A stretch of DNA of 28,524 nt from a virus: positions 1 through 28,524 of IMG/VR virus record IMGVR_UViG_3300045453_000017, one strand, 5' to 3'. Shown here piece by piece: positions 133 through 23,053 of this stretch. Within the stretch, counting starts at the first letter, position 1, and every line of letters begins with the position of its first letter. The notes under the pieces were generated by a model that saw only the letters and a program-made list of their open reading frames with translations, did not search any database and was not told the DNA's origin. The translations under genes were made by a program, and so were the position numbers.

Positions 133-3100
133 GTGGGGAGGCGAGACCTGCCCGCCTCCCTCCCCTCAGGCGACAAGCATAAAATGAGTGGCTTCGCTCA
201 CCTTCATCTACATGACCAGTTCTCCTTCCTGGATGGATTTGGGAAGACGGACGAGTATATTCAGCAAGCGAAACAAATGGGACTCGCGGCCTATGTTCAG
301 ACAAATCATGGCGGCTTGTGGGGAATGGCGCGGGCCTTCAAGGCATGTAAGCAGGCAGGAATCAAATTCATTCCTGGTGTCGAATTCTATTTGGACAGTG
401 GTGCGGTAGACAAAGCACAACGACGTATTGCATGGGAACACCTCACGGTCCTTGCTATGAACCAAGAAGGATATCAGAACCTGCTGCGTCTTGCTTCATT
501 AGCAGGGGAGCGGATGCACAGGAACAGACCAATCCTAGACTATCCGGCACTATTCAAACATCGAGAAGGACTCATTGTCCTCTCAGGCTGTTCTTCTGGC
601 AAGGTGATACGGCTGATCAACGCAAACGAGATTGATCGAGCCATAAAAGTTTTGGAAATCTTCAAGCGTGGATTTGATAATCGGTTCTATGTGGAGTTAC
701 AGCCCGCAAACCTGTCTGAGTATCGAAACGCTAATCCTGTTCTCGTTGAACTCGCGCACAAACTCAAACTCCCCCTTGTAGCGACAAATGATGTGCATTA
801 CCCGAAGCCCTCTGATGCAGAAGTTCATGAAGTGATGCTCTGTGTCCAGACCAGAGACAGAATGGCAAATCCAAAGCGATGGAAATTCGCATGGGATGGG
901 TTCTACCTTGCCAGTGATAAAACTCTGCAACAATGGTTCAGAGACTATCATGGCCAAATCAGGCGATGCGATGTTGATGCCGCGTTTCAAGGGGTGTCAG
1001 ACATCGTGGACCGTTGCCGGGTCGATCAGCCAATTCCGTCTCAATTCATTCTTCCACAAATTGCCAAAGATCCAAAGGCTGAATTTGAACGCATTGTTGC
1101 GGCGGGTTTCCGGGCACGCGGCCTTGACAAGCGCCCCGATACAGATGCCTATCGCCAGCGACTCAAGTATGAAGGATCGATAATTCTCAAACAAGGACTC
1201 CATCCTTACTTCCTCATCGTCGCAGACTTGATGCGGTGGGCACGGGCCCGGATGTTGGTAGGGCCTGGCCGAGGGAGTAGTGGAGGGAGCCTGGTTTGCT
1301 ATTGCCTTGGCATTACAGATGTAGATCCCTTTGTCCATGGCACATTGTTTGAGAGATTCATAACTGAAGAGAGGGCTGACCTGCCTGACATTGATATGGA
1401 CTTTCCTGCTTCGCGCCGCGAGGAGATTGTTGAATACCTACGGCAGAAGTACGGGTTCGAAAGTGTCGCTGGTGTTGCAACATACATTGAGTTCAAAGGC
1501 CGGTTGGCTCTTCGCGATGTTGCCAAGGCATTTGATGTGCGGCCAGAAGAGATTAACAAGGTCGCGCCACTTATCATTGTGAAGTCTGGCGGCGATGCTC
1601 GCGCCGATATGACGGTAGAAGACGTAGCCACCGAATCGCCTGAGTTCAAAACCTTTGCTAAGCAGTATCCTAAGGTTGTGAAGGTGGCGATGCGCCTTGA
1701 AGGTACCACGCGTCAGCTGGGGAAACATGCTGCAGGCGTTGCGGTGACCGATAAGCCCTGTACTCATTACTTCCCAACGTACCGAACTAAAGATGGCTAC
1801 CGGATGTCACAGTGGGACAAGGATGATCTTGAGGGGCTGAAACTCCTGAAGATTGATATCCTCGGCATTGATATCCTTGACACGATCACCAAAACACTCA
1901 AGGCCATCAAGGCAAGGCACAACAAAAAGATTGAGATGATAGATTTGCCTCTTGATGATCCAAAGGTCCTCGCAGAGTTTAATGAAGGCAATACTGTGGG
2001 CGTGTTCCAATTTGAATCCAAAGGAATTGCCTACTGGGCTAAGGCAATTGGCGTTCAGAAATTCAGGGACATCGTTGACATCAATGCCCTTTATCGGCCC
2101 GGTACTTTGCGGTCAGGAACAATTAAACAATACTTCCTGCGAAAGAAAGGGAGGCAGCAGTATAGTTATGCTCATCCCTATTTGGAAGCGATTCTCAAGG
2201 ACACCTACGGGATTCCATTGTACCAAGAACAATTGATGTTTATCTTCAATCGCCTTGCAGGATTCAAGTGGCGTACAACCGATACAGTACGCAAGGTCGT
2301 ATCAAAATCGCAAGGTTTGGAAAAGTTCAATTCCTATTGGCAGGATTTTCTGAAAGGCTGTCAGGAGCGTGGAATGACTGAAGCCCAAGCCAATGAAGTG
2401 TTCAAGACCATGCGTGATTTTGGCGCGTATGGTTTCAATTTGGCGCACGCTGTTGAATACTCGATGATTGCATCATGGTGTATGTGGTTGAAGGTTTATT
2501 ATCCGCTTGAATATCTGGCAGTGCTCATCTCCAATGAAAAGAACCCTGAGCGTGTGGCTCTCTATTTGAAAGAGGCTCACCGCCTTGGCATTGAGATTCG
2601 CGCGCCTCAAGTAGGGAAGAGTGGATGGGGATATAAGATTGAAGGGAAAACCCTTCGGATTGGCTTTAAAGACATCAAAGGGATAGGTGAGAGGGCGGGC
2701 AGAATACTGGAGACCGCAAAGGGTATTACATCATGGGAACGCTTCTTTGGAACCATCGAGAAACGCATTGTGAATGCCCGCGTGCTTAAGGCCCTCTTGC
2801 AAGCAGGAGCGGCAAAAGATCTACGTCCTGCTGTCTCCCTTAAGGCCGTCCACGAGGATGGATGGGCCCGATTTGAAAGCCTGCGTCGGCTCAAATTTGA
2901 TGAATTGCCTCACGTGGAATATGATGATTCAACGTTGGCAACCCTACGACACGAAGTCTTCCCAATCCATATCGGGCCACACCCGTTGACGCTCTATAAG
3001 GATCTATTGAAACGGAATCCCAAGGTGCTCCCAATTGAGAAATTGCAATGGACGTCAGGCATCTACTTGTTCGCGGGCGTTATCACGAATGTTGGGCATA

Positions 3101-3384
3101 GCACAATTCATCGTCTTGACGAGAATGGTGTCAGCCGCTCGAAGAAATTGACTTACTGTACATTGGATGGTGAACGCGAATACATGGTTATGATGATCCG
3201 GGGCGGACCAGGAGAACCTGAGCGAGCCAACGCAGTCAAGGCACTGAACGGCAAGCCTGTAATTGTCGAGGTTGAAGTCAATGCTGATCGTAACAAGGTC
3301 TACCTTATCAATGTAGCGAGCCTGGAGGAGATTAGGAGGAAGGCGGATGCGAAAAGGACGAATGGAGCGGAGGCACCCAAGTAG
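133..3384 (+). CDS. dnaE: DNA polymerase III alpha subunit, C family (DnaE-like), with PHP domain
   Basis: Catalytic subunit of a bacterial-type replicative polymerase, 1083 aa from GTG 133. The PHP domain is N-terminal and appears to keep the metal ligands of active PHP domains: HLH (H25, H27), D34, H59, E84, H103, C153 and D220/H222. The usual TDHG reads TNHG (N58). The polymerase core carries VGPGRGSSGGS, the palm aspartates in PDIDMDF (D421, D423) and the third aspartate in KIDILG (D575). YGIPLYQEQ and YGFNLAHAVEYS motifs follow, and an OB-like region lies near residues 975-1020. I see no QxxLF-type clamp motif just before the HPL segment, where DnaE proteins usually have one. Residues 1-17 have no family counterpart, so translation from ATG 184 (1066 aa) remains possible. 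It overlaps the next gene by 38 nt. Confidence 0.93.
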   Translation: MGRRDLPASLPSGDKHKMSGFAHLHLHDQFSFLDGFGKTDEYIQQAKQMGLAAYVQTNHGGLWGMARAFKACKQAGIKFIPGVEFYLDSGAVDKAQRRIAWEHLTVLAMNQEGYQNLLRLASLAGERMHRNRPILDYPALFKHREGLIVLSGCSSGKVIRLINANEIDRAIKVLEIFKRGFDNRFYVELQPANLSEYRNANPVLVELAHKLKLPLVATNDVHYPKPSDAEVHEVMLCVQTRDRMANPKRWKFAWDGFYLASDKTLQQWFRDYHGQIRRCDVDAAFQGVSDIVDRCRVDQPIPSQFILPQIAKDPKAEFERIVAAGFRARGLDKRPDTDAYRQRLKYEGSIILKQGLHPYFLIVADLMRWARARMLVGPGRGSSGGSLVCYCLGITDVDPFVHGTLFERFITEERADLPDIDMDFPASRREEIVEYLRQKYGFESVAGVATYIEFKGRLALRDVAKAFDVRPEEINKVAPLIIVKSGGDARADMTVEDVATESPEFKTFAKQYPKVVKVAMRLEGTTRQLGKHAAGVAVTDKPCTHYFPTYRTKDGYRMSQWDKDDLEGLKLLKIDILGIDILDTITKTLKAIKARHNKKIEMIDLPLDDPKVLAEFNEGNTVGVFQFESKGIAYWAKAIGVQKFRDIVDINALYRPGTLRSGTIKQYFLRKKGRQQYSYAHPYLEAILKDTYGIPLYQEQLMFIFNRLAGFKWRTTDTVRKVVSKSQGLEKFNSYWQDFLKGCQERGMTEAQANEVFKTMRDFGAYGFNLAHAVEYSMIASWCMWLKVYYPLEYLAVLISNEKNPERVALYLKEAHRLGIEIRAPQVGKSGWGYKIEGKTLRIGFKDIKGIGERAGRILETAKGITSWERFFGTIEKRIVNARVLKALLQAGAAKDLRPAVSLKAVHEDGWARFESLRRLKFDELPHVEYDDSTLATLRHEVFPIHIGPHPLTLYKDLLKRNPKVLPIEKLQWTSGIYLFAGVITNVGHSTIHRLDENGVSRSKKLTYCTLDGEREYMVMMIRGGPGEPERANAVKALNGKPVIVEVEVNADRNKVYLINVASLEEIRRKADAKRTNGAEAPK
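136..160 (+). promoter_or_regulatory. 8-bp GC hairpin at the polymerase start
   Basis: GGGAGGCG (136-143) and CGCCTCCC (153-160) are perfect inverted repeats around a 9-nt loop. No T-run follows, so a terminator is unlikely. The hairpin lies immediately after GTG 133 and upstream of ATG 184, where it could modulate initiation at either codon. The regulatory role is inference. Confidence 0.4.
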
Positions 3385-11752: not shown

Positions 11753-12943
11753 TTAATTCGGAATTCGCAGGGCTCTGAATCCGACTCCTGCGCTATCAAT
11801 TGCCCCCATGCTAACTCGCTGTACAGTAATTGTCCCCCCGATGTTTCGTGCAATCAAGAGAGCGGTCTCGCCATCTGCTGGGGTTCTTACTCCAATGGCC
11901 TCCACAATGACGCTGGTCGTTCCGTCGCGGGTGATGTTGATTTGGAATCGGCTTCCATTGGCTGCTGTTGTCCAATTCTCGGTCGCAAAGAAAGCGTTGT
12001 TCCCTCCAGAAGCAAAGGCTGTCCCATTGTAGGCGGTGGCAATCCATGCTACAAGGCGGTCTCCTGACAAAATTGCAGCAGGCCCGACTCGTGCTCGTAG
12101 GTATTGTGTGATGGGGGAATTTGATGCAATATTGCTGTGCGCTTCAAGAGTATGTTGTTGAATCCCATCATCGCGTCGGGTGAAAATTGACCTCCACCCC
12201 AGAGAACTACTCCCAAAGTCTCTTGTTCCTGTCGGTTGAGGGAGCATTGATCGCATTACACGGATATTGCTATTAGCATTAGGGTTATCATTATCAATGA
12301 ATAAATCTCCGCCTATCCCACTCAAAACAAGGTCTCCCGATCCAGTTGACCGAATACGCCCCCGTTCTACGCCTTGTGTTTTGAAGACCATCACTGCTTG
12401 GCCTGCCCCTATGCTATCTGGTGTTTCCACAATTAAGGCTGGATCGGAAATATTGGTATTTTCAGATACATAACGAACATGGAGTCGAAGGGTTTTGGTG
12501 TTACGTCCAACCCCGCCTCCTTCATAGAGCATTATCTCTGTTGGGCTTATAGCAATGCCAATAGGCTGGCTGTTAGTTGTTGGGGCGGTTGCTGTCAGCG
12601 TTCCAGCAGTGGTGCTAATGTAGATGTCTTGTCCTGCTGTCCATGCCCATCCGGTATTGGTAACGATGGAGAGGGGCTCTTGATAAACGTAGATGGTGGC
12701 ACCTGAACCTGCGGCTGTTGCAGCGATTCCCCGAACCCCCAAAGAAGCATCAACCGCTCTCAACCATCGATTCGTCGCCGCATTATAGAAGACGGCCTGG
12801 AATTGGCTGATTGACTCGCCAGCAAGACCTTGTACTGTGAACCCGGCTTCGACTCTATCCAGGTTTGTATTATAAGTCAAAGTCTTCGCGGCCGCAGTCG
12901 GATCAGGCTTCGTCAATCTGCGGTGTCTCGTAACAGTGGCCAT
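11753..12943 (-). CDS. Tail fibre / receptor-binding-like protein
   Basis: A 396-aa protein with AGGAG upstream of ATG. Residues 30-145 form a beta-rich head (SISQFQAVFYNAATNRWLRA, GIAATAAGSGATIYVY, AGQDIYISTTAGTLTAT) similar to small virion decoration or fibre-attachment domains. The middle has strand-turn repeats typical of trimeric fibres (SGDLVLSGIGGDLFIDNDN) and the fibre signature FGSSSLGWRSIFTRR (about 245-259). The C-terminal 110 residues are a probable receptor-binding tip rich in T, S, N and G. It follows the tail-tip gene, which fits a side or central fibre. Receptor unknown. Confidence 0.75.
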   Translation of the reverse strand: MATVTRHRRLTKPDPTAAAKTLTYNTNLDRVEAGFTVQGLAGESISQFQAVFYNAATNRWLRAVDASLGVRGIAATAAGSGATIYVYQEPLSIVTNTGWAWTAGQDIYISTTAGTLTATAPTTNSQPIGIAISPTEIMLYEGGGVGRNTKTLRLHVRYVSENTNISDPALIVETPDSIGAGQAVMVFKTQGVERGRIRSTGSGDLVLSGIGGDLFIDNDNPNANSNIRVMRSMLPQPTGTRDFGSSSLGWRSIFTRRDDGIQQHTLEAHSNIASNSPITQYLRARVGPAAILSGDRLVAWIATAYNGTAFASGGNNAFFATENWTTAANGSRFQINITRDGTTSVIVEAIGVRTPADGETALLIARNIGGTITVQRVSMGAIDSAGVGFRALRIPN

Positions 12944-15900: not shown

Positions 15901-16723
15901 CCATGGTGGTTGGCCCCAAGTCCCAATCGAGGAAGACAACCTGTGTTATATGAGGATAGGACTCTACGTCTGTTGTTGCTCCTGTCCCTTGTCTATACTC
16001 AATCCAAATTGTCACGTTAGAATACGTCCCGCCAAACACAATGCGCCCATCTGAATTGCTGATGGTATATTGATTTTGACCTGGCGAAGCGCTGACCTGC
16101 GTGAAGACAATCCGATTGCCAGTGGACCCAGCCGGGCCACTTTCAAAGGAATAGATCAAGTCACTACCAACAACAATTGGAGTCCGCGCGACTACATAGG
16201 ACTGGCCTGATCCATTTAGGACAATTGATTCCTTGTGTTTTGGTTGATTTGATCCAGGTCCAAAGACCGTCTGCATCGTCGAATCGGCTGCCTGTCGCCA
16301 TCCTTTGCGGACTCTGATTTGTGAACCATACTTTGATAGATCAACGAGAGCCTTATTTGACCATATGCGATGGATACGATCAACAACGCCTTCACAAACA
16401 TTGACAACAAAAGAGGCCACATAAGTAATTTCCTCTTGCTGCTGTTTCCCTCCGCCACCGCCTTTGCCTCCCTTGCCTCCGCCTTTCTTGACTTGACGGA
16501 ATCCCCAGTGCGCTACGATATTCCCAGCGAATTTCTGCCGGCCATAATGGAAAGGCAATGGGACGCCGCGAGCGGTAGTCTGGAATTGAAGGTTGGCTAT
16601 TCCCTCTGGCCCATAGGTTCTCGGTTTGGGCATGAAGAGTGCTTTGAGCAAAGACCCTACTGCAAACCCTAGCAGGTTCTTGAGGACTCCTCCAAGGGGT
16701 CCAGCGAATATGGCCTTAGCCAT
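12980..16723 (-). CDS. J-like tail tip attachment protein with a ~330-residue inserted domain
   Basis: A 1247-aa central tail-tip protein; GGAGGAG precedes ATG 16723. The N-terminus has a hydrophobic helix, then IANLQFQTTARGVPLPFHYG and a Lys/Gly loop (80-95), a known trait of this family. VNVCEGVVDRIHRIW (108-121) and VPNFIFEV (275-282) belong to the conserved core, which resumes at NPAWIAYDVLTNTRYGCG (637-654). Between them, residues about 288-615 contain repeated strand-turn units (VWQDAGRTYKLYNPETGI, GFFVRDLQTGALLSCF, IYVYWSNSGSG, EIRVYDLAGG) that look like a beta-propeller insertion. The C-terminal third has fibronectin-like strands. It works with the three preceding tail genes at the tail tip. 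Confidence 0.88.
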   Translation of the reverse strand: MAKAIFAGPLGGVLKNLLGFAVGSLLKALFMPKPRTYGPEGIANLQFQTTARGVPLPFHYGRQKFAGNIVAHWGFRQVKKGGGKGGKGGGGGKQQQEEITYVASFVVNVCEGVVDRIHRIWSNKALVDLSKYGSQIRVRKGWRQAADSTMQTVFGPGSNQPKHKESIVLNGSGQSYVVARTPIVVGSDLIYSFESGPAGSTGNRIVFTQVSASPGQNQYTISNSDGRIVFGGTYSNVTIWIEYRQGTGATTDVESYPHITQVVFLDWDLGPTTMVPNFIFEVSRRVPLSAQPKHYIAVWQDAGRTYKLYNPETGIEASTIDLGAIFDQTRHPSSQWHALRGECVAGRPGFFVRDLQTGALLSCFANPLSGGSSVYLTRTTGIVAGDALGINGQWQKLKVFDWIFDDSLAIVGVKFSWWQMFWPDHTSLRIVDMDEFFVYANGIARILLLLTRGADQHEGNQAIKSYVINRSAITTGPKDSAPDGDVAALVVCGSLIYVYWSNSGSGEGNFGEIRVYDLAGGSAQILSAQSRYSPGVGEYLARGTTLGGDHPPAFNQFPLVDVITGVRSFTGGGLVGMKVIGRMVVVDNQNPAGTLVRAINIDDKAIKWTVTGPIADSGQIMEVQYGAQHTPSTGDENPAWIAYDVLTNTRYGCGFPASMIDEASFRDASIYFAQNRLFISPIFRERGSALQHLESMLLLVDTFLTFSGGKFSLRPRRQEPASNIPAITTAAYTKGQSVVVSREGNTDLTSRVIVHYTNRAQDYTPDTQEARLLGQTHGRELEIGGEAITDPELARKLAYRTLWVKSVKRLTGAIPIGPQDGHIEPADVIAWTDTDLGLSSKRMRVVGLGEESDGRAMLEALEENEYIMEWDAPLPGDVIVPVSPQLQDPAAHTRLSVLELGPVPVNGNPSIVAIVSGVDRAWAGARLYASDDNATYTRIAEIGTGSVWGVTRTGLVATPSQFLDETNTVDVEILAPDVTLVSVTDSQFRAGVNRILIGGEIIYFKTATLVSGQRYTLSTLLRGMELTTATSHNAEAGALVLNQYAIILTPVRGTIPKIGLQPIQSMPIDWLLVGRTMFFKATSRNVMGEEQPISEVSPVSILYQATGGMPTRIDNLQGVNAGAIQASGADFEMGIATGLSVSASPNRHLKTVWTYTDVSIQEDSELERGVVDGKDPNFRAYRVTYRVGADVRRIREVTTETDTYTESENIADSGSWQSTIGVTVQIVGKDGGLSEAISRTFTMTVKT

Positions 16724-17222
16724 GATGCTCCTCCATCTCCACCATTGACTTTGGCCGAAAGGCTCCTGTGTAACGTTGCCACCAATATTCGTTCATTGTT
16801 TCGCGAAGTACGCCCTGCCGCGTCCCGCGATTCCATGAGTGAATAAACTCATCGCCGCCAATCCATATACCAGCATGGGAAACGGTGCGCCCGGTTTGGA
16901 AGGTCACGATGTCGCCAGGCATTGGGATTGGGACTCTCACTCCATATTTGAGTAACCCTTCCAGATACCGTTCTTCATCCCGATGGAGATGCCAATCGGG
17001 GGCATAGTAGGTGAGTTCAGACAGCAGTTCCTTCAAGTCAAATTTGGAAAGAGCCCCAACGGCCGCATACACCTCGACGAGGAAGAAGAGGCAATCCACC
17101 CCTGATCCCTTCTGCCGCCCCATGTGATGATATGGAGTCCCTATCCATGTTTGGGCTTCGGCCACAATCTTTTGGCGCAGGTCTTTTATAGCGTGTCGGT
17201 GGGTTTCGGTATCCTTGGGCAT
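16716..17222 (-). CDS. NlpC/P60-family tail-tip peptidase
   Basis: A 168-aa protein. The catalytic set is C44 (GSGVDCLFF), H116 (VSHAGIWIG) and H128 (EFIHSW), and the N-terminal AEAQTWIGTPYHHMGRQKG is the family signature. ATG 17222 is chosen because the conserved domain starts soon after; the frame is open to GTG 17285 with no better SD. It overlaps the end of the upstream gene by 37 nt and the tail-tip gene by 8 nt. Lambda K and gene-transfer-agent homologues sit at the same place and are thought to cut peptidoglycan peptides during infection or to act in tail assembly. Confidence 0.9.
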   Translation of the reverse strand: MPKDTETHRHAIKDLRQKIVAEAQTWIGTPYHHMGRQKGSGVDCLFFLVEVYAAVGALSKFDLKELLSELTYYAPDWHLHRDEERYLEGLLKYGVRVPIPMPGDIVTFQTGRTVSHAGIWIGGDEFIHSWNRGTRQGVLRETMNEYWWQRYTGAFRPKSMVEMEEHHG

Positions 17223-19147
17223 CCTCTGAACCCCATTAGGTTGTTGAATTTGTTCTTGCAGTCTCCGCTCATCCGCTTGTCGCACCCTGGGACTATCCTG
17301 ATTGAATCGCCAGCACTTGGGACTCTGGGCAGGTCGGCCGCTAGGCTAAGAGTCTCAATTCCATTCGGATGCCGAACAAAGACTTCAGACATTTCTACGG
17401 AATCTCCATCGGCCGCTCGCGTAACAATAACCCTAACGTATCGGCTAGAATCAGCAGCCCCCAAAGTCAAGGTGAACCGGCGCCACCTATCTGGAACTGA
17501 GATATGATCAAGGTTAGAAGCCGCCGCAGAGGATACCGCCCCCAAACTTGTGAAGGTTACCCCATCGTCTGACTTTAGGTACTCAACCTGAGACGGAATA
17601 GCGGAGCCAGTGAAGGAAGATGTCAATTCCTTATAGGATCGAGAGGCTCCAAGATCAATTGTGATCTGAATGACTCCATCCAACGATAAACTACGGAATC
17701 CGGCGAATGGAATTCCATTCCGTCCATTGAATTCCTGCAGGTCTGTCAGGACTTGGAAATGGGGGTCTGTCGTACCCTGTGGAGGATTCAAGTATGTATA
17801 CCTAGCATACCGAGCCACTTCCCAATCAGCATGGGTATGTTTGCGGATCATCCGCTTAGTCCCGAGCATAGCCCCTGTGTTATATGTCAATTCTCCTCGG
17901 CTATAGTAGTCGGTCGGTTGAGTCCCGCGAGTCCGTATTGTCATCTTCTCTAGAACATCAGCGTAACGGATGTCGATTGGGCTTACATCTCCTGTGTACT
18001 CCCTGTAAGAATCAAATGAATGGCCAACAATTTCCTGACCAGATGGCCTCTCATCAACCAACATCACGCGCGTATATGATCCTAGCCCTGCTGGCATAAC
18101 ACCTTGCGTGGCTGTACTTATGGCCATTATCCATGTTTTCCCCGCATCAATGCTGTATGAGAACCATACTGTCCGGCCATTACAGTATAGTCGGAACAAG
18201 GGAGAATCTGTTGTTTTGATCGTGCGACCCCCGATAGCCTCCCAGGAAGTCCCATTCCAAAATGTGATATCTATGCGAATGCCTCCACTTACGACAATGG
18301 CACTGAGGAAGACACCAGGATTATTGGCGCTTACTGTATCTTGAATTCCAAGGAAGGCGCTACGAAGCGTTGACCCGCCCCATTGTGCCCAGTTACTTGG
18401 ACGAATCTCTAGTGTGAATGGAAAGGTGGGTGGCGTTCGATAAATCTGGGCCATTGTATTATTGACTGTTGCCTGAACCATCACGGCCGATCCATCGAGC
18501 GTCACGCTACCGACTCCAGCATCTGTCCAGTCAGTGCCTAAGACAAATCGATTAAACAAGTCTTCAAAAGCAATGGCTGGACCAGGGAACAATGATGTGG
18601 TAATCTCATAGGAAGGTCGAGGAACACCACACCACTCGTCGAAGAGTTCATTCTGGCATAATTCATCTTGGATGGTTTTAGGGATGTCTCGATCAATTCT
18701 TGCCAATGGCGATTCTAGACGAAGCGATACTGTGGTACGAGTAGTTGAGGCTTTTTGAATGATCCACGTTGTATGGGGCACAGCATTGGCAAGAGGGTTA
18801 TCCCCGTCCCACTTGAAAAGTTCCACAATTCCACCGTCGAGGAATCCTAATAATGCCATATCTCCCAGCCGAGTCCTCGTTCCATCCTGAAGCATCAAGG
18901 GGACATTTGGCATTGAGATGTCCATGGAGTCAATAGTAAGATTGACTCTCGATGTGGCTCGCCCACGCCTATGTCCAAAGGCCACAAAAAGATATGGAAT
19001 TCCAAGGATGTTCGCCGTCACGTCCGTGTCTCTATCGGCGAAACGATATATAGTTCCATCTGGAAGCGTAACCCGATACAACGTGATGTGGATTCGGCTT
19101 GGAGCCTTGGAGGTGTCTCTAAAGGATTGTGGCCAGTTCTTTGGCAT
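17186..19147 (-). CDS. DUF2163/BR0599-type tail protein with two inserted adhesin-like domains
   Basis: A 653-aa protein; family members are usually under about 300 aa. Residues 1-180 are the DUF2163 part (ITLYRVTLPDGTIYRFADRD, SRVNLTIDSMD, WCGV). The C-terminus IVPGCDKRMSGDC then KNKFNNLMGFRGCPRIP (619-647) is the BR0599 end. Between them, residues about 193-385 form a concanavalin/laminin-G-like sandwich (EDLFNRFVLGTDWTDAG, LFRLYCNGRTVWFSYSIDAG). Residues about 445-592 resemble an F5/8-type-C galactose-binding domain (VIQITIDLGASRSYKEL, VEYLKSDDGVTFTSL, RYVRVIVTRAADGD). The family is a hub protein below the tape measure; the insertions suggest glycan binding. It starts in a TAATG overlap. 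Confidence 0.85.
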   Translation of the reverse strand: MPKNWPQSFRDTSKAPSRIHITLYRVTLPDGTIYRFADRDTDVTANILGIPYLFVAFGHRRGRATSRVNLTIDSMDISMPNVPLMLQDGTRTRLGDMALLGFLDGGIVELFKWDGDNPLANAVPHTTWIIQKASTTRTTVSLRLESPLARIDRDIPKTIQDELCQNELFDEWCGVPRPSYEITTSLFPGPAIAFEDLFNRFVLGTDWTDAGVGSVTLDGSAVMVQATVNNTMAQIYRTPPTFPFTLEIRPSNWAQWGGSTLRSAFLGIQDTVSANNPGVFLSAIVVSGGIRIDITFWNGTSWEAIGGRTIKTTDSPLFRLYCNGRTVWFSYSIDAGKTWIMAISTATQGVMPAGLGSYTRVMLVDERPSGQEIVGHSFDSYREYTGDVSPIDIRYADVLEKMTIRTRGTQPTDYYSRGELTYNTGAMLGTKRMIRKHTHADWEVARYARYTYLNPPQGTTDPHFQVLTDLQEFNGRNGIPFAGFRSLSLDGVIQITIDLGASRSYKELTSSFTGSAIPSQVEYLKSDDGVTFTSLGAVSSAAASNLDHISVPDRWRRFTLTLGAADSSRYVRVIVTRAADGDSVEMSEVFVRHPNGIETLSLAADLPRVPSAGDSIRIVPGCDKRMSGDCKNKFNNLMGFRGCPRIPKPTDTL

Positions 19148-20226
19148 TATGCCTGCACTCCTTCTAGCATGGTCTTCTCCCCAATGAACTCAACCTCGAC
19201 CCCCCATCGCTCATGCGTAACACGCTGAAAGTCCAATTCATCCTGCACAAAGTAGACTCGATACCGCGCATCAGTTACGTCAGCGCGAAGAATAGCGCCA
19301 TAGGCCGGAGCCGCAGCATACGTAACGACGCCTGTGAAGTAGTCAATGGTCGGCTGTGGGGAGTCTACGATACCATTAGTAGAGGTTGTTACGACCATCG
19401 CCCAATCACAGTGAAGTTTGAATTTGGTCGCAAATCCATTGCCCATACCAAAGAACTTGGCCGTGTAGTTTGCCTTGATTGGGTCTCGAATTAGCAGAGG
19501 CTTCCATGCGCCCCAGTGTTGTGAATGAAGTTCTTCCATTGCTTCGCGTTCAGCATCTGTAAGTGAATCGTATCTAAACCTAAAACCATATCTGCCTCGT
19601 TCCCACAGTTTATTCGCTTGGCGAAACCCACTTACATATTCGACAACTTCGGTGGCTCCTGCAATCCGACGCATGGAATATCCATTGGGCACGTAAGTCC
19701 AGAAGAAGTCTCCCAAGGCTTCAAAGTCATCGAGACGCGCCCCGCCTGCTAGTGAACAGAGACCGCCTGCCCCTGTGGCGATTGAAGTATCAGTCACTGT
19801 CCCACGCAGAATTTCATTGTAGTAGGCCCGGAGCGTAGTCCCCTGCCCTTCAATGCCCATATAGGCGCTAGGGAAACGTCCAATCCCACCAAATGCAGCG
19901 ACCTGCGAATAAGCGCCCCCCACTCGTTTCATAATCCGATAGCCCGCGATTGCATCAAATTCAACCCAATACAAGTTAGGCGTCGCGCCCACTCCAACGC
20001 GAAATGCGGGCCCAAAGGCATTGCCAGCCTCAGCAACATCTCTGACTCTGACGCGGTAGTCATTTGGATGAAGTGCACGGCTTCGCGCAACATGCGTTCC
20101 TGCTGCAACAGTTCGAAATTCATTTGAGACAATTTGCCAATCGCCTTGATTCTCTTCCCAATTCACACCGAGGGAAATGGAATTGGCTCGGTTGGCATCG
20201 TCCTTGAAAATCATAGGCACAGGCAT
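19147..20226 (-). CDS. DUF2460-like distal tail protein with N-terminal lectin-like domain
   Basis: A 359-aa protein. ATG 20226 is preferred (AGAGGTGG about 7 nt upstream, 4 nt after the tape measure stop) over GTG 20238, which would overlap. Residues about 8-175 read as a concanavalin/laminin-G-like sandwich (NWEENQGDWQIVSNEFRTVA, YWVEFDAIAGYRIMKRVGG, TTLRAYYNEILRGTVTD). From about 195 on, the sequence SGFRQANKLWERGRYGFRFR, DSLTDAEREAMEELHSQHWG and WGVEVEFIGEK fits the DUF2460-type protein that normally lies between the tape measure and DUF2163 genes. The role is a distal tail ring; the N-terminal sandwich probably faces outward. The DUF2460 assignment is supported by position as much as by sequence. 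Confidence 0.72.
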   Translation of the reverse strand: MPVPMIFKDDANRANSISLGVNWEENQGDWQIVSNEFRTVAAGTHVARSRALHPNDYRVRVRDVAEAGNAFGPAFRVGVGATPNLYWVEFDAIAGYRIMKRVGGAYSQVAAFGGIGRFPSAYMGIEGQGTTLRAYYNEILRGTVTDTSIATGAGGLCSLAGGARLDDFEALGDFFWTYVPNGYSMRRIAGATEVVEYVSGFRQANKLWERGRYGFRFRYDSLTDAEREAMEELHSQHWGAWKPLLIRDPIKANYTAKFFGMGNGFATKFKLHCDWAMVVTTSTNGIVDSPQPTIDYFTGVVTYAAAPAYGAILRADVTDARYRVYFVQDELDFQRVTHERWGVEVEFIGEKTMLEGVQA

Positions 20227-20230
20227 GGCG

Positions 20231-23053
20231 TTATCCACCTCTGAAGGCTGGGTGATTCATCCGCCTCTGCATCCCCATCAAATTGGCCAGATGATCGCCC
20301 TGCTCATACAATTTCTGCAGTCCAGTCTCAGTATCCCACGCAAAGATATTGACAACATTCATTCCTGCTGCGCCCGCAAGTTCCACAGGTATCTTTCCCT
20401 TCTTGAGGGGGATGACGGCTTCAGGATGATTGAATTCCGAGAGGGTTGCCAACGTTGGCCGATTGCTGATCCATCCTTCTGCCGCTCGTACAGGCGTCAG
20501 GCGGCCTGGCGAGATTCCACCTTGTGCAAAGCCAAAGCCCAGCAGCCCAAAGAGGAACCCAAGAAGCCCTCCTCCAGCAAGACCCCTGAAGCCGCCACCC
20601 TTGAGCCCTGACAAGAGTGAAGAGAAGACTTCCCTTAGCCTGAGCGACTCCACGACAGACTGTGCGACTGCCTTAGCAACCTCAGAAATGATTGCGCGGC
20701 CAACGCTTCGAGCAAAGTCTACAATCCCTCCAAGCGCTGTCTTTGATCCGGTTGCCACGTCTACAATCATCTGTTCAATGGCGCTTTGGATGCCTCCGAC
20801 GACTCGATCAATCGGCTCCATAATCAGGTTATTCAATTCTCTTCTTGTCCGAGCAATCTCATGTTTGATGGTCCCCTGCTGTTCTTCGGTGAGTCCGTTC
20901 ACAAGTAACTGCTTCTCAAGTCCAATTATCCTTAGTCTCAATTTGTCTTCAGGCGTGCCTTCATAAAGTTCCAGTTCACGCTGGAGATGTGTCCGAAGAT
21001 GCTCTAACTCTTGGTCTCGCGCCTCACGTCGTGCCTGCACAATATCCCACGCACCCTTGATAGCCGCTTCCCTCTCCTTTGGTGTACCTGGGGCCTCAAA
21101 TGCAGCCCTGAGCAAATCTTCCTCCTCTTGTATTTGAACTCTCTTAAGCATATCTAGATATAGTTGAATCGCTCTCTGTGCCGCTTCCATCTGTTCATTG
21201 TGCTCGCGTTGCCTTATGGCGGCTTCTCGTTCCAGCATCGCCTTCGCCTGCAGGGCTTCAGCATACTCTTTCATCTGCTGGGTAAGGATGTGAAGATCGG
21301 GCAACATACCTTTGTATCGTTCATGGAGGGCTTCAATGGCGTCAATGTCCCCTTCTTCGGCGGCCCGCTTCATCGCTTGGGCAACTTCCACAAATTGATC
21401 CGCCATCTTCTTGCCAATGTTCTCGACTGCCAATGCTTTGAACTTATCAATGACAAAGTCAATATCAGGAACCGCCCCACGCAACTGATCCCTCAATCGC
21501 TCAAGGCCGAACACGTCTCCCTCTTCGGCCATCTTTGTGATCTTAGTCAAATCGGCGACCAGTTGATTTGTAGTTTCCTCGACTAATTGTTTTGTAAGCC
21601 GAGTTTGCTCACGCTTCAAATCATTATTGCGGATGAGCAAATCATTCTCAATTTGAAGCAATTGATTGAGGATTGTACGCCGCTCATTCTCGTCCTTAGC
21701 CAATGGGAGTAACTTTGCCAGCGATGTTCTATGTGTTTCAATTGCAGCAATCTCGGCCTTCATGCGGTCAATGGTGTCGTCCATAATAGCCGCATAGGCC
21801 ATCTGCCGATCCCTAAGCGTATTGATCGCATCAAGGCGCCTCTCAAGAACTGATATCCCTTCTGCCCCAACCCCAGCCCCGCCTCTGAGGACTCTAGCAA
21901 GTTCCTCTTCCATCTCTGCTGAGAACTTCGCCATCGCAGCCTGCTGTGCTTGTGCTGCACCGTGCGCCTCGATGATTTTGATTGCTTCGGCTCTCGCTGA
22001 CGCCTCGCCACGCACGGCACGAAGAACCAAATCCTTGTCTTTGATAATCCCTCTGATATACGCATCACTAATGCGCCTTGAATCTTCGGCGTGTTGCTTC
22101 ATTCTATTGGCCTCGGCTTCGAGGCGCGTCAAACCAAGACCAAGGAGTGCCGCAAAGGCTGCTGTAAGTCCAATTACAGGGTTGGCAAGAGCAATGACAG
22201 CAATCCTCAATGCGACAAGGCCCTTAATAAGAAAGGCCGCCGCAACACCAACGCCTCCTATCGCTGTAAGCAACCCACCAAGAACGGCAGCAGTTTTGAG
22301 AATCTGCATAGTTAGGACTGGATGTTCTTTCATCCATCCAGTGACTGCAATCATTGCCCGCGTTGCCTCGACCACAAGTTCTCGCACAAAGGGCATCAAT
22401 TGCGCCCCGAGAGTCATGGCTGCGCCTCTGAGTCCTGCTGTCAATTCGGTTAGGCGGTCACCAAATTCTTCTGCCCCTTTGACGGCTTCATCGGAAAAGA
22501 CAAGGCCTAATTTTCTAGCCATCTCCATGTTGCGTTCTATATCACTAGTGCTTTGCCGAAGGAAGGGCATAAGTCCTTTGTACCCTCCCCCAAGCATCTT
22601 AATAGCAATGGCGCTACGTGTTGTATCGCTTTCGACCCTATTGAGAGCCTGGCCAAAGAGGATCAATGATTCATCAATCTTCATGTCCCGAAGTTCTCGC
22701 ACCGAAAGGCCCATCTTTTCAATCAATCTTGCCGCATTACTGGTCGGGTCTGCGGCTTCTGTCAATGCTACTGCCCACCTCTCGGTGGCCGCAATCAAAT
22801 CATTTAGTGTGCCATGCTCCTGCTCAATAGCAAATCTGAGCATTTGAAGCCGCTCAACGCTTATGCCGGTGATCCTGTTCGCGCGGTCGATTTCCTCGCC
22901 ATAGGCTTGGAACCCTTTGACAGCAAGAGCCAAGGGTCCTGTAATAGCCGCACCTGCAACGGCGAGACGTTTCGACCCTTCCTCAACCTTACCAAGAGCG
23001 GCAATAGCCGCACCAGCATTTGCCCGAACGATGATTTCAATGATATTAGCCAC
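20231..23053 (-). CDS. Tail tape measure protein
   Basis: A 940-aa protein from GTG 23053, with AGGTGA 7 nt upstream. It is the longest helical protein in the virion block and lies after the chaperone pair. Ala/Gly-rich N-terminal helices (GKVEEGSKRLAVAGAAITGP) are followed by a hydrophobic cluster at about 245-305, long charged coiled coils (400-780), a Gly-rich stretch (about 830-860) and a compact C-terminus (EGWISNRPTLATLSEFNHPE). Using the common rule of about 1.5 angstrom per residue, the tail would be near 140 nm. Two AEEGD helical units spaced 56 residues apart look like an internal duplication. Confidence 0.93.
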   Translation of the reverse strand: MANIIEIIVRANAGAAIAALGKVEEGSKRLAVAGAAITGPLALAVKGFQAYGEEIDRANRITGISVERLQMLRFAIEQEHGTLNDLIAATERWAVALTEAADPTSNAARLIEKMGLSVRELRDMKIDESLILFGQALNRVESDTTRSAIAIKMLGGGYKGLMPFLRQSTSDIERNMEMARKLGLVFSDEAVKGAEEFGDRLTELTAGLRGAAMTLGAQLMPFVRELVVEATRAMIAVTGWMKEHPVLTMQILKTAAVLGGLLTAIGGVGVAAAFLIKGLVALRIAVIALANPVIGLTAAFAALLGLGLTRLEAEANRMKQHAEDSRRISDAYIRGIIKDKDLVLRAVRGEASARAEAIKIIEAHGAAQAQQAAMAKFSAEMEEELARVLRGGAGVGAEGISVLERRLDAINTLRDRQMAYAAIMDDTIDRMKAEIAAIETHRTSLAKLLPLAKDENERRTILNQLLQIENDLLIRNNDLKREQTRLTKQLVEETTNQLVADLTKITKMAEEGDVFGLERLRDQLRGAVPDIDFVIDKFKALAVENIGKKMADQFVEVAQAMKRAAEEGDIDAIEALHERYKGMLPDLHILTQQMKEYAEALQAKAMLEREAAIRQREHNEQMEAAQRAIQLYLDMLKRVQIQEEEDLLRAAFEAPGTPKEREAAIKGAWDIVQARREARDQELEHLRTHLQRELELYEGTPEDKLRLRIIGLEKQLLVNGLTEEQQGTIKHEIARTRRELNNLIMEPIDRVVGGIQSAIEQMIVDVATGSKTALGGIVDFARSVGRAIISEVAKAVAQSVVESLRLREVFSSLLSGLKGGGFRGLAGGGLLGFLFGLLGFGFAQGGISPGRLTPVRAAEGWISNRPTLATLSEFNHPEAVIPLKKGKIPVELAGAAGMNVVNIFAWDTETGLQKLYEQGDHLANLMGMQRRMNHPAFRGG

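Follow-up and report, generated by a model that had tools for sequence, protein, structure and literature searches.

IMG/VR record IMGVR_UViG_3300045453_000017 is a metagenomic virus sequence of 28,524 bases, which was analysed over its whole length (hereafter the window) with a focus on two adjacent tail-tip genes that encode the tail hub protein (DUF2163/BR0599, lambda gpL/RcGTA gp13 type) and the distal tail protein (DUF2460). Both are core parts of an RcGTA/lambda-type tail tip that have probably gained outward-facing carbohydrate-binding modules (CBMs), which would act as host-glycan adhesins. The distal tail protein carries a separate N-terminal domain that matches a known CBM by sequence profile, and the hub carries two additional blocks, the first of which is predicted to adopt a related fold.

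Architecture of the tail hub

The first-pass annotation had described the hub as about twice the usual family length, with its conserved N- and C-terminal pieces split by added domains, and both points hold. The protein has 653 amino acids (aa), compared with 266–322 aa in the 18 related viral hubs first found, and the family core delimited by the hub profile spans 646 aa in the window hub and 257–287 aa in ordinary members. PF09931, the N-terminal attachment domain, covers residues 19–175 (54.9 bits; cut-off 26) and PF09356 (BR0599) covers residues 578–648 (65.1 bits; cut-off 22.9), while the surplus length of ~366 residues falls into two blocks at about residues 185–404 (insert 1) and 441–598 (insert 2). 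The NCBIfam model of the GTA baseplate hub equivalog (TIGR02218) gave 59.2 bits and its cut-off of 80.5 was not reached, so the window hub is a member of the hub superfamily and not of that equivalog. Its sole match within the window's own assembly was the hub itself.

In RcGTA, the hub contains an oligosaccharide-binding (OB) domain of ~82 residues (residues 168–249) between two ion-binding segments, and its iron-sulfur cluster is bound by four cysteines (PMC7296036). The corresponding residues of the window hub, Cys164, Cys173, Cys622 and Cys630, are invariant in an alignment of 19 hubs (the window hub and its 18 viral relatives), with the invariance at the C-terminal end inflated because the relatives were gathered partly via the DCKNKFNN motif. 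Both inserts sit inside the OB-type domain between cysteines 2 and 3, with insert 1 placed before the conserved strand at residues 405–440 and insert 2 right after it. The whole-hub model has a mean predicted local distance difference test score (pLDDT) of 54.8 with a good core, and Foldseek and VIA matched it to the hubs of roseophage vB_DshS-R4C (R4C; Z 13.8), lambda (gpL, Z 12.9) and RcGTA (Z 12.8) and to the JBD30 baseplate (Z 12.5). The superpositions on the R4C and RcGTA hubs span a broken range (root-mean-square deviation, rmsd, 11), and that on lambda gpL corresponds to the attachment domain (rmsd 2.8).

A CBM66-like domain on the distal tail protein

PF09343 covers only residues 191–343 of the distal tail protein (45.1 bits; cut-off 30.4), and the narrower TIGR02217 was not reached (14.2 versus 136.65). 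The remaining N-terminal part, residues 1–186, is a separate domain (N-domain), as had been proposed when a sandwich was first noted there. Its family was gathered from IMG/VR with the motif NRA[ND]xxxLGxNW, which yielded 71 contig stretches, in most of which the domain was matched. After fragments that were >80% identical position by position, the window and partial rows had been dropped, 50 fragments were kept, from which 37 went into alignment A3 (together with the full L020 protein), 43 into A4 and 29 into A5. Searched against the PDB, the 44-row A4 profile found three entries of the Bacillus subtilis levanase CBM66 (4azz, 4b1l and 4b1m) at E-values (E) of 3.1e-9 to 6.5e-9, with 4azz the best, and the next match was a glycosyl hydrolase at E 0.0098. 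The CBM66 of levanase binds levan, and in that protein it is attached to a fructan-degrading enzyme, unlike the modules of the window.

The N-domain is also present in an 87%-identical relative, a second phage that shares 80% DNA identity over 9.35 kb. Between the two phages, the ratio of nonsynonymous to synonymous substitution rates (dN/dS) of the N-domain is 0.108, compared with 0.041 in the DUF2460 part. The N-domain is thus under purifying selection and evolves faster than the DUF2460 core; being retained yet faster-changing is as expected for a recognition module.

Predicted folds of the hub inserts

A model of insert 1 (m15543ce6e60a), for which the distal tail domain family (A5) supplied 30 rows, has a pLDDT of 63.7 and a predicted template modelling score of 0.59. 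Foldseek matched it to CBM66 (4b1m, E 2.3e-5), and VIA aligned it with CBM66 (Z 11.3), with the C-terminal sandwiches of glycoside hydrolase family 43 (GH43; Z up to 13.2) and with residues 689–873 of mycobacteriophage Douge gp20 (Z 10.7); the Douge-derived entry 8zdo_a was found by Foldseek, and many phage minor tail proteins were matched in BFVD. The model also matches non-lectin sandwiches, e.g., SPRY domains. The second half of the fold is independently supported, because the unbiased whole-hub model shows the same seven strands at residues 263–344. With these caveats, insert 1 is predicted to be a jelly-roll/concanavalin sandwich with a CBM66-like fold, in agreement with the lectin-like sandwich first suspected in this part of the hub.

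No sequence relative of insert 1 was found in any library or collection tried, including IMG/VR, phages and plasmids, nor did it match a concanavalin-like Pfam or PHROG family. Five candidate loci contained no significant relative of insert 1, and PDB sequence searches with inserts 1 and 2 gave no match worth noting. One Asp-box-like stretch (SIDAGKTW, window 18131–18157) is present in insert 1, with a Pfam BNR match below the cut-off (E 0.13).

Insert 2 had been taken for an F5/8 type C domain, a label that was rejected as unproven. PF00754 matches ~90 residues of the domain at E 0.03 with the fragment and E 0.1 with the whole protein (14.9 bits; cut-off 28.2), and confidence in this region of the whole-hub model is mostly <50. 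Insert 2 is best regarded as an unassigned beta-rich domain that is at most weakly F5/8C-like.

Relationship between the two sandwiches

A shared opening motif had been read as a hint of common origin. The motif itself is there, as F.D..NR and LG..W open both sandwiches with differing spacing (NR-2-LG versus NR-5-LG), but the common origin was not borne out. A duplication within this phage, in which one sandwich was copied from the distal tail protein into the hub, can draw on this motif, on the relation of both domains to CBM66 (the N-domain by sequence, insert 1 by fold) and on a score of 7.4 bits for insert 1 against the 44-row N-domain profile, which was equalled or exceeded by 7 of 1930 scored shuffles (2000 were made and 70 went unscored). 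The shared motif is not the carrier of this weak similarity, because shuffling the first 40 residues of insert 1, which hold the motif, left a mean of 6.05 bits, whereas shuffling the remainder left 1.71. Against the duplication, an hhalign comparison of the two sandwiches gave a probability of 5.4% over 27 columns, BLASTP between them found no meaningful match, and the window hub ranked 124th (E 8.2) when the N-domain profile was run over 3394 natural open reading frames (ORFs). Dozens of domains in unrelated phages are, moreover, far closer to the distal tail domain than the hub insert is. The duplication was rejected on these grounds, and we consider it very improbable. The two sandwiches are likely members of the concanavalin-like fold group, with at most a fold in common.

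Recurrent insertions between cysteines 2 and 3

The number of residues separating cysteine 2 from cysteine 3 (the spacer) was read from profile columns in 59 hubs, comprising the window, 18 viral loci, four further loci (L021–L023 and L025) and 36 stretches of alphaproteobacterial genomes, a selection in which all matches with a long open frame were included. Two loci were left out of this set, one being the window itself (L019) and the other the same stretch as L021 (L024), and L034 has no measurable spacer. In L034, a long N-terminal part was ruled out as a real domain, because this stretch is read in a different frame from the DUF2460 gene upstream, with which it overlaps; similarly, the hubs of L026, L028 and L029 were counted from the profile match, since the first-called ORF starts ~150 residues too early through overlap with the upstream gene. 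All four cysteine columns are present in 57 of the 59 hubs. The spacer is 76–93 residues in 51 of the 58 measurable hubs, and the outliers are L026 (154), L130 (159), L029 (326), L027 (327), L028 (337), the window (448) and L031 (649). A spacer of 83–93 was found in all 80 additional viral hubs, the best 80 of 591 relatives, a sample biased against inserts because it was ranked by similarity to an uninserted hub. From published cysteine positions, the spacer is 22 in lambda gpL (C173, C182, C205 and C212; PMC10721106) and 81 in the upper baseplate protein of JBD30 (PMC11445458). One hub (L039:2944-4089) has ~80 extra residues between cysteines 3 and 4 rather than 2 and 3.

The frequency of such hubs was assessed in two draws of alphaproteobacterial genomes. 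PF09356 was found in 47 of the 289 genomes of the first draw (54 matches); 14 of these matches had an open frame of at least 370 aa, all of which were read, and four have an insertion of at least 240 aa. In the second draw, 36 of 96 genomes contained PF09356 (40 matches), and none of the 18 long frames read had an insertion of at least 240 aa, with L130 having ~67 extra residues. In the phylum of L021, 2 of 296 genomes had a PF09356 match. With frequencies of 4/54 and 0/40 PF09356 matches, inserted hubs are rare yet recurrent.

Six other alphaproteobacterial hubs (L026, L027, L028, L029, L031 and L130) are inserted in the same loop. A profile made without the window hub puts the insertions of L026–L029 and L130 all at one position. 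The window hub and L031 were aligned by this profile at one end only; the window insert was placed by pairwise anchors and the L031 insert by a profile that includes the window, and in these placements window insert 1 and the L031 insert both precede the same strand as the other hub insertions. The contents of the loop differ. The L031 insert holds a Laminin_G_3 domain (Pfam E 5.6e-16) and a second domain, and those of L027, L028 and L029 hold differing galactose-binding-looking domains, a label given by reading the sequences by eye and with weak database support (HpiC1-like for L028, E 0.0021; the virion structural family phrog_12736 for L027, E 8.3e-5). Two of the six, L026 and L130, have just ~70 extra aa. 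Sibling hubs within one genome can differ, as L027 has an insertion of 243 aa and L026 one of 70 aa. Judged from sequence, this variety at one hub loop looks like module swapping at a permissive site. The flanks of the inserts in L026:2772-4292, L027:2669-4249, L028:3759-5828 and L029:3602-5638 (YxVGDVVRV ... ENRVYRCVTAGTT) resemble what we take to be a small chitin-binding-type repeat, and the larger modules look as if they were nested within an earlier, smaller insert.

Several of the loci surveyed contain other additions at the tail tip. A non-contractile tail sheath protein (NCTSP_N and TIM barrel) is fused to the hub in L030:1805-4504 and to DUF2460 in L035:1096-3507, so that one enzyme-like module is joined to two adjacent tail-tip genes in different genomes. 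L012:5079-9452 encodes a megatron-like protein of 1457 aa with a C-terminal Laminin_G_3 domain (E 1.1e-24) beside a hub of normal length. In L021, a contig of a Bacteroidales metagenome-assembled genome, a separate protein of 552 aa with DUF2341 (317-1975) lies between the tape measure and DUF2460 genes; it has, by eye, a concanavalin-like start motif and may represent this kind of module encoded by a gene of its own.

Neighbouring tail genes

By Pfam and PHROG matches, the minus strand of the window carries a siphophage-like structural module that comprises a major capsid protein, tail proteins and the genes from the tape measure protein through a candidate fibre (Table 1). The tail-tip gene order is that of RcGTA and R4C, namely the DUF2460 distal tail protein, the hub, an NlpC/P60 peptidase and a megatron-like protein. 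The latter scored 179.6 bits against the NCBIfam model GTA_megatron, under the cut-off of 800. Its Pfam matches are confined to residues 686–1039, and its first ~600 residues, where R4C has peripheral and carbohydrate-binding domains, are without a family match. On the plus strand, opposite the tail genes, positions 133–3384 encode a DnaE-like DNA polymerase III alpha subunit with 30–35% identity to the best-listed phage versions.

Table 1 Features of the tail-tip region of the window.
Feature	Position	Strand	Evidence
Tape measure protein	20231-23053	minus	Matches to several PHROG tape-measure families, lowest E 2.7e-23
Distal tail protein (DUF2460), 359 aa, or 363 aa from an alternative GTG start at 20238	19147-20226	minus	PF09343 above cut-off, residues 191-343
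N-terminal CBM66-like sandwich of distal tail protein, residues 1-186	19669-20226	minus	Profile A4 against PDB, levanase CBM66 4azz, E 3.1e-9
Tail hub protein (DUF2163/BR0599, lambda gpL/RcGTA gp13 type), 653 aa	17186-19147	minus	PF09931 and PF09356
Hub attachment domain, residues 8-153	18689-19126	minus	pLDDT mostly 70-86; lambda gpL 8iyk_L aligned there, rmsd 2.8
Iron-sulfur cysteines 1 and 2 (C164, C173), base of insert loop	18629-18658	minus	Hub alignment and profile columns
Hub insert 1, residues 185-402, predicted concanavalin/CBM66-like beta-sandwich	17942-18595	minus	Model m15543ce6e60a, Foldseek, VIA
Conserved strand of the normal OB domain, residues 405-440, between both inserts	17828-17935	minus	Aligns to L001 234-266 and L002 186-218
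Hub insert 2, residues 441-598, beta-rich, weakly F5/8 type C-like	17354-17827	minus	Sub-threshold PF00754; 158-aa insertion against hub profile
Iron-sulfur cysteines 3 and 4 (C622, C630)	17258-17284	minus	Hub alignment and profile columns
Hub C-terminal ion-binding/clip part, residues 599-653	17189-17353	minus	phmmer to RcGTA hub 6tba_7A, query 595-648, E 3.9e-8
NlpC/P60 peptidase beside hub (RcGTA g14-like position)	16716-17225	minus	PF00877, E 2.5e-11
Megatron-like tail protein, 1247 aa	12980-16723	minus	PF13550 and PF23666 above cut-off
Candidate separate fibre, 396 aa, downstream	11753-12943	minus	

Discussion

If the added domains of the two proteins work as proposed, the inserts would face outward from a loop whose base is shut by the iron-sulfur cluster, and domains could be added there while the trimeric hub and its contacts stay intact. 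The R4C tip is built from three hubs and six distal tail proteins (PMC10276861), and hub trimers lie beneath a hexamer of distal tail proteins in RcGTA (PMC7296036). With the same stoichiometry, the window phage would display ~3 + 3 + 6 modules, with two extra domains per hub on three hubs and, above these, six CBM66-like modules. The modules may make many weak contacts with a host surface glycan (capsule, lipopolysaccharide or slime), which would retain the virion at the surface and orient its tip before the megatron and any fibre bring about irreversible binding and DNA delivery. The modules would be adhesins rather than enzymes; we infer that they are exposed, bind glycans and affect adsorption. 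The match of insert 1 to a Douge domain is instructive here, because the Douge tip-CTD and BppU-CBM, as expressed proteins, bound mycobacterial cells and glycans (PMC13033339).

Several observations weigh against this interpretation. A jelly-roll fold alone is no proof of glycan binding. The model of insert 1, with a pLDDT of 64, is biased by the A5 rows of a presumed homologous family, and only its second half appears in the unbiased model, while no fold could be assigned to insert 2 with confidence. Neither tblastn nor pattern searches of plasmids and IMG/VR with either insert, or of phages with insert 1, turned up another phage that carries them, and the contig of the one close relative stops 30 residues into the hub. 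Large inserts are also rare (4/54 and 0/40 PF09356 matches) and hence dispensable for the system.

The inserts could instead be structural, bracing or widening the baseplate or docking the fibre or megatron, with their beta-sandwich folds a coincidence. Beta-sandwich decorations are indeed frequent in phage virion proteins, the PHROGs label for the N-domain fold family is merely 'virion structural protein' (phrog_2804), and the fit of insert 1 to sandwiches such as SPRY is what such a role would allow. We nevertheless regard it as unlikely, given that the distal tail domain finds its best family match in a CBM, the nearest phage structural matches of insert 1 are glycan-binding tail domains, and most relatives make the same baseplate without inserts. 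That inserts vary between close siblings and are missing from most hubs would also suit neutral recombination passengers at a permissive loop, with no selected function. This seems improbable to us: the window hub ORF is intact and the codon usage of inserts 1 and 2 is like that of their neighbours, and if the inserts were random passengers, lectin-like and galactose-binding-like domains would hardly be expected to predominate among them. The distal tail N-domain, a comparable module though not one of the hub inserts, has its dN/dS of 0.108 between phages 80% identical in DNA. Acquired host-glycan adhesins are our preferred reading of the modules.

The first-pass annotation had set glycan-binding modules around the hub apart from the usual reliance on separate fibres. 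Lectin-like modules are found, one by profile and one by fold, but they do not depart from a rule, since RcGTA, R4C and Gram-positive siphophages precede them. OB-type domains are already present in both the distal tail protein (Dit) and the hub of RcGTA and R4C (PMC7296036, PMC10276861), and the authors of the R4C study list accessories for carbohydrate binding in its Dit, hub, megatron and fibre (PMC10276861). With RcGTA gp13 and gp12 (PDB 6tba), the window shares the gene order, the attachment domain, the four cysteines, the OB-type hub domain and a sugar-binding-type domain on the distal tail protein. It differs in that the interval between cysteines 2 and 3 holds two further domains, with 448 residues as against the ~82-residue RcGTA domain, and in that the module of its DUF2460 protein is N-terminal, whereas that of RcGTA is an internal insertion. 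R4C (PDB 8gtc) likewise has a homologous hub, megatron and Dit, but its hub is of ordinary length (291 aa) and its extra CBM11-like domain lies in the megatron (PMC10276861).

In the 'evolved Dits' and 'evolved Tals' of Gram-positive siphophages, one or two CBMs are added to Dit and two to the gp27-like part of Tal, and some of these bind the phage's host (PMC7291167). The CBM of an evolved Dit is inserted in a loop of the galectin domain. The window module precedes the DUF2460 domain and does not interrupt it, so it would work like an evolved Dit without being classed as one. The two inserts lie in a hub that, together with the megatron, corresponds to gp27/Tal, with insert 2 only weakly F5/8C-like; unlike the evolved Dits and Tals, the window hub is of the split lambda/RcGTA iron-sulfur type, and the folds are CBM66/concanavalin-like, not BppA-like. 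The nearest solved phage tail domains to the insert 1 model are the C-terminal domain of Douge gp20 and BppU-CBM (PDB 8zdp and 8zdo), which are terminal on a central fibre and a peripheral baseplate protein and are not hub insertions (PMC13033339). No published description of large inserted modules in a DUF2163/gpL-type hub was found in searches of open-licence papers.

A bolder reading, which we put forward tentatively and consider possible rather than likely, is that lambda/RcGTA-type hubs have a general display socket in the interval from cysteine 2 to cysteine 3, with the cluster stapling both ends of the loop. Modules of 22 residues (lambda gpL), ~80 residues (most hubs) or 150–650 residues (inserted hubs) might then be swapped without disturbing the tail tip, and the role of the cluster might be to let the hub tolerate modules for host recognition. 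The function of the iron-sulfur cluster in the tip has been described as still to be characterised (PMC10721106), and the literature found does not assign it this enabling role.

These findings carry the idea of evolved Dits and Tals over from Gram-positive siphophages to the split, iron-sulfur hub of the RcGTA/lambda type and name a specific, recurrent hub insertion site. As a single number that can be read from any genome, the spacer offers a test for tail tips with extra modules, and the socket reading offers a testable reason why the tip iron-sulfur cluster is kept. Should the modules bind glycans, they would constitute a second layer of host recognition beside the fibres, one that is missed by host-range predictions based on fibres only.

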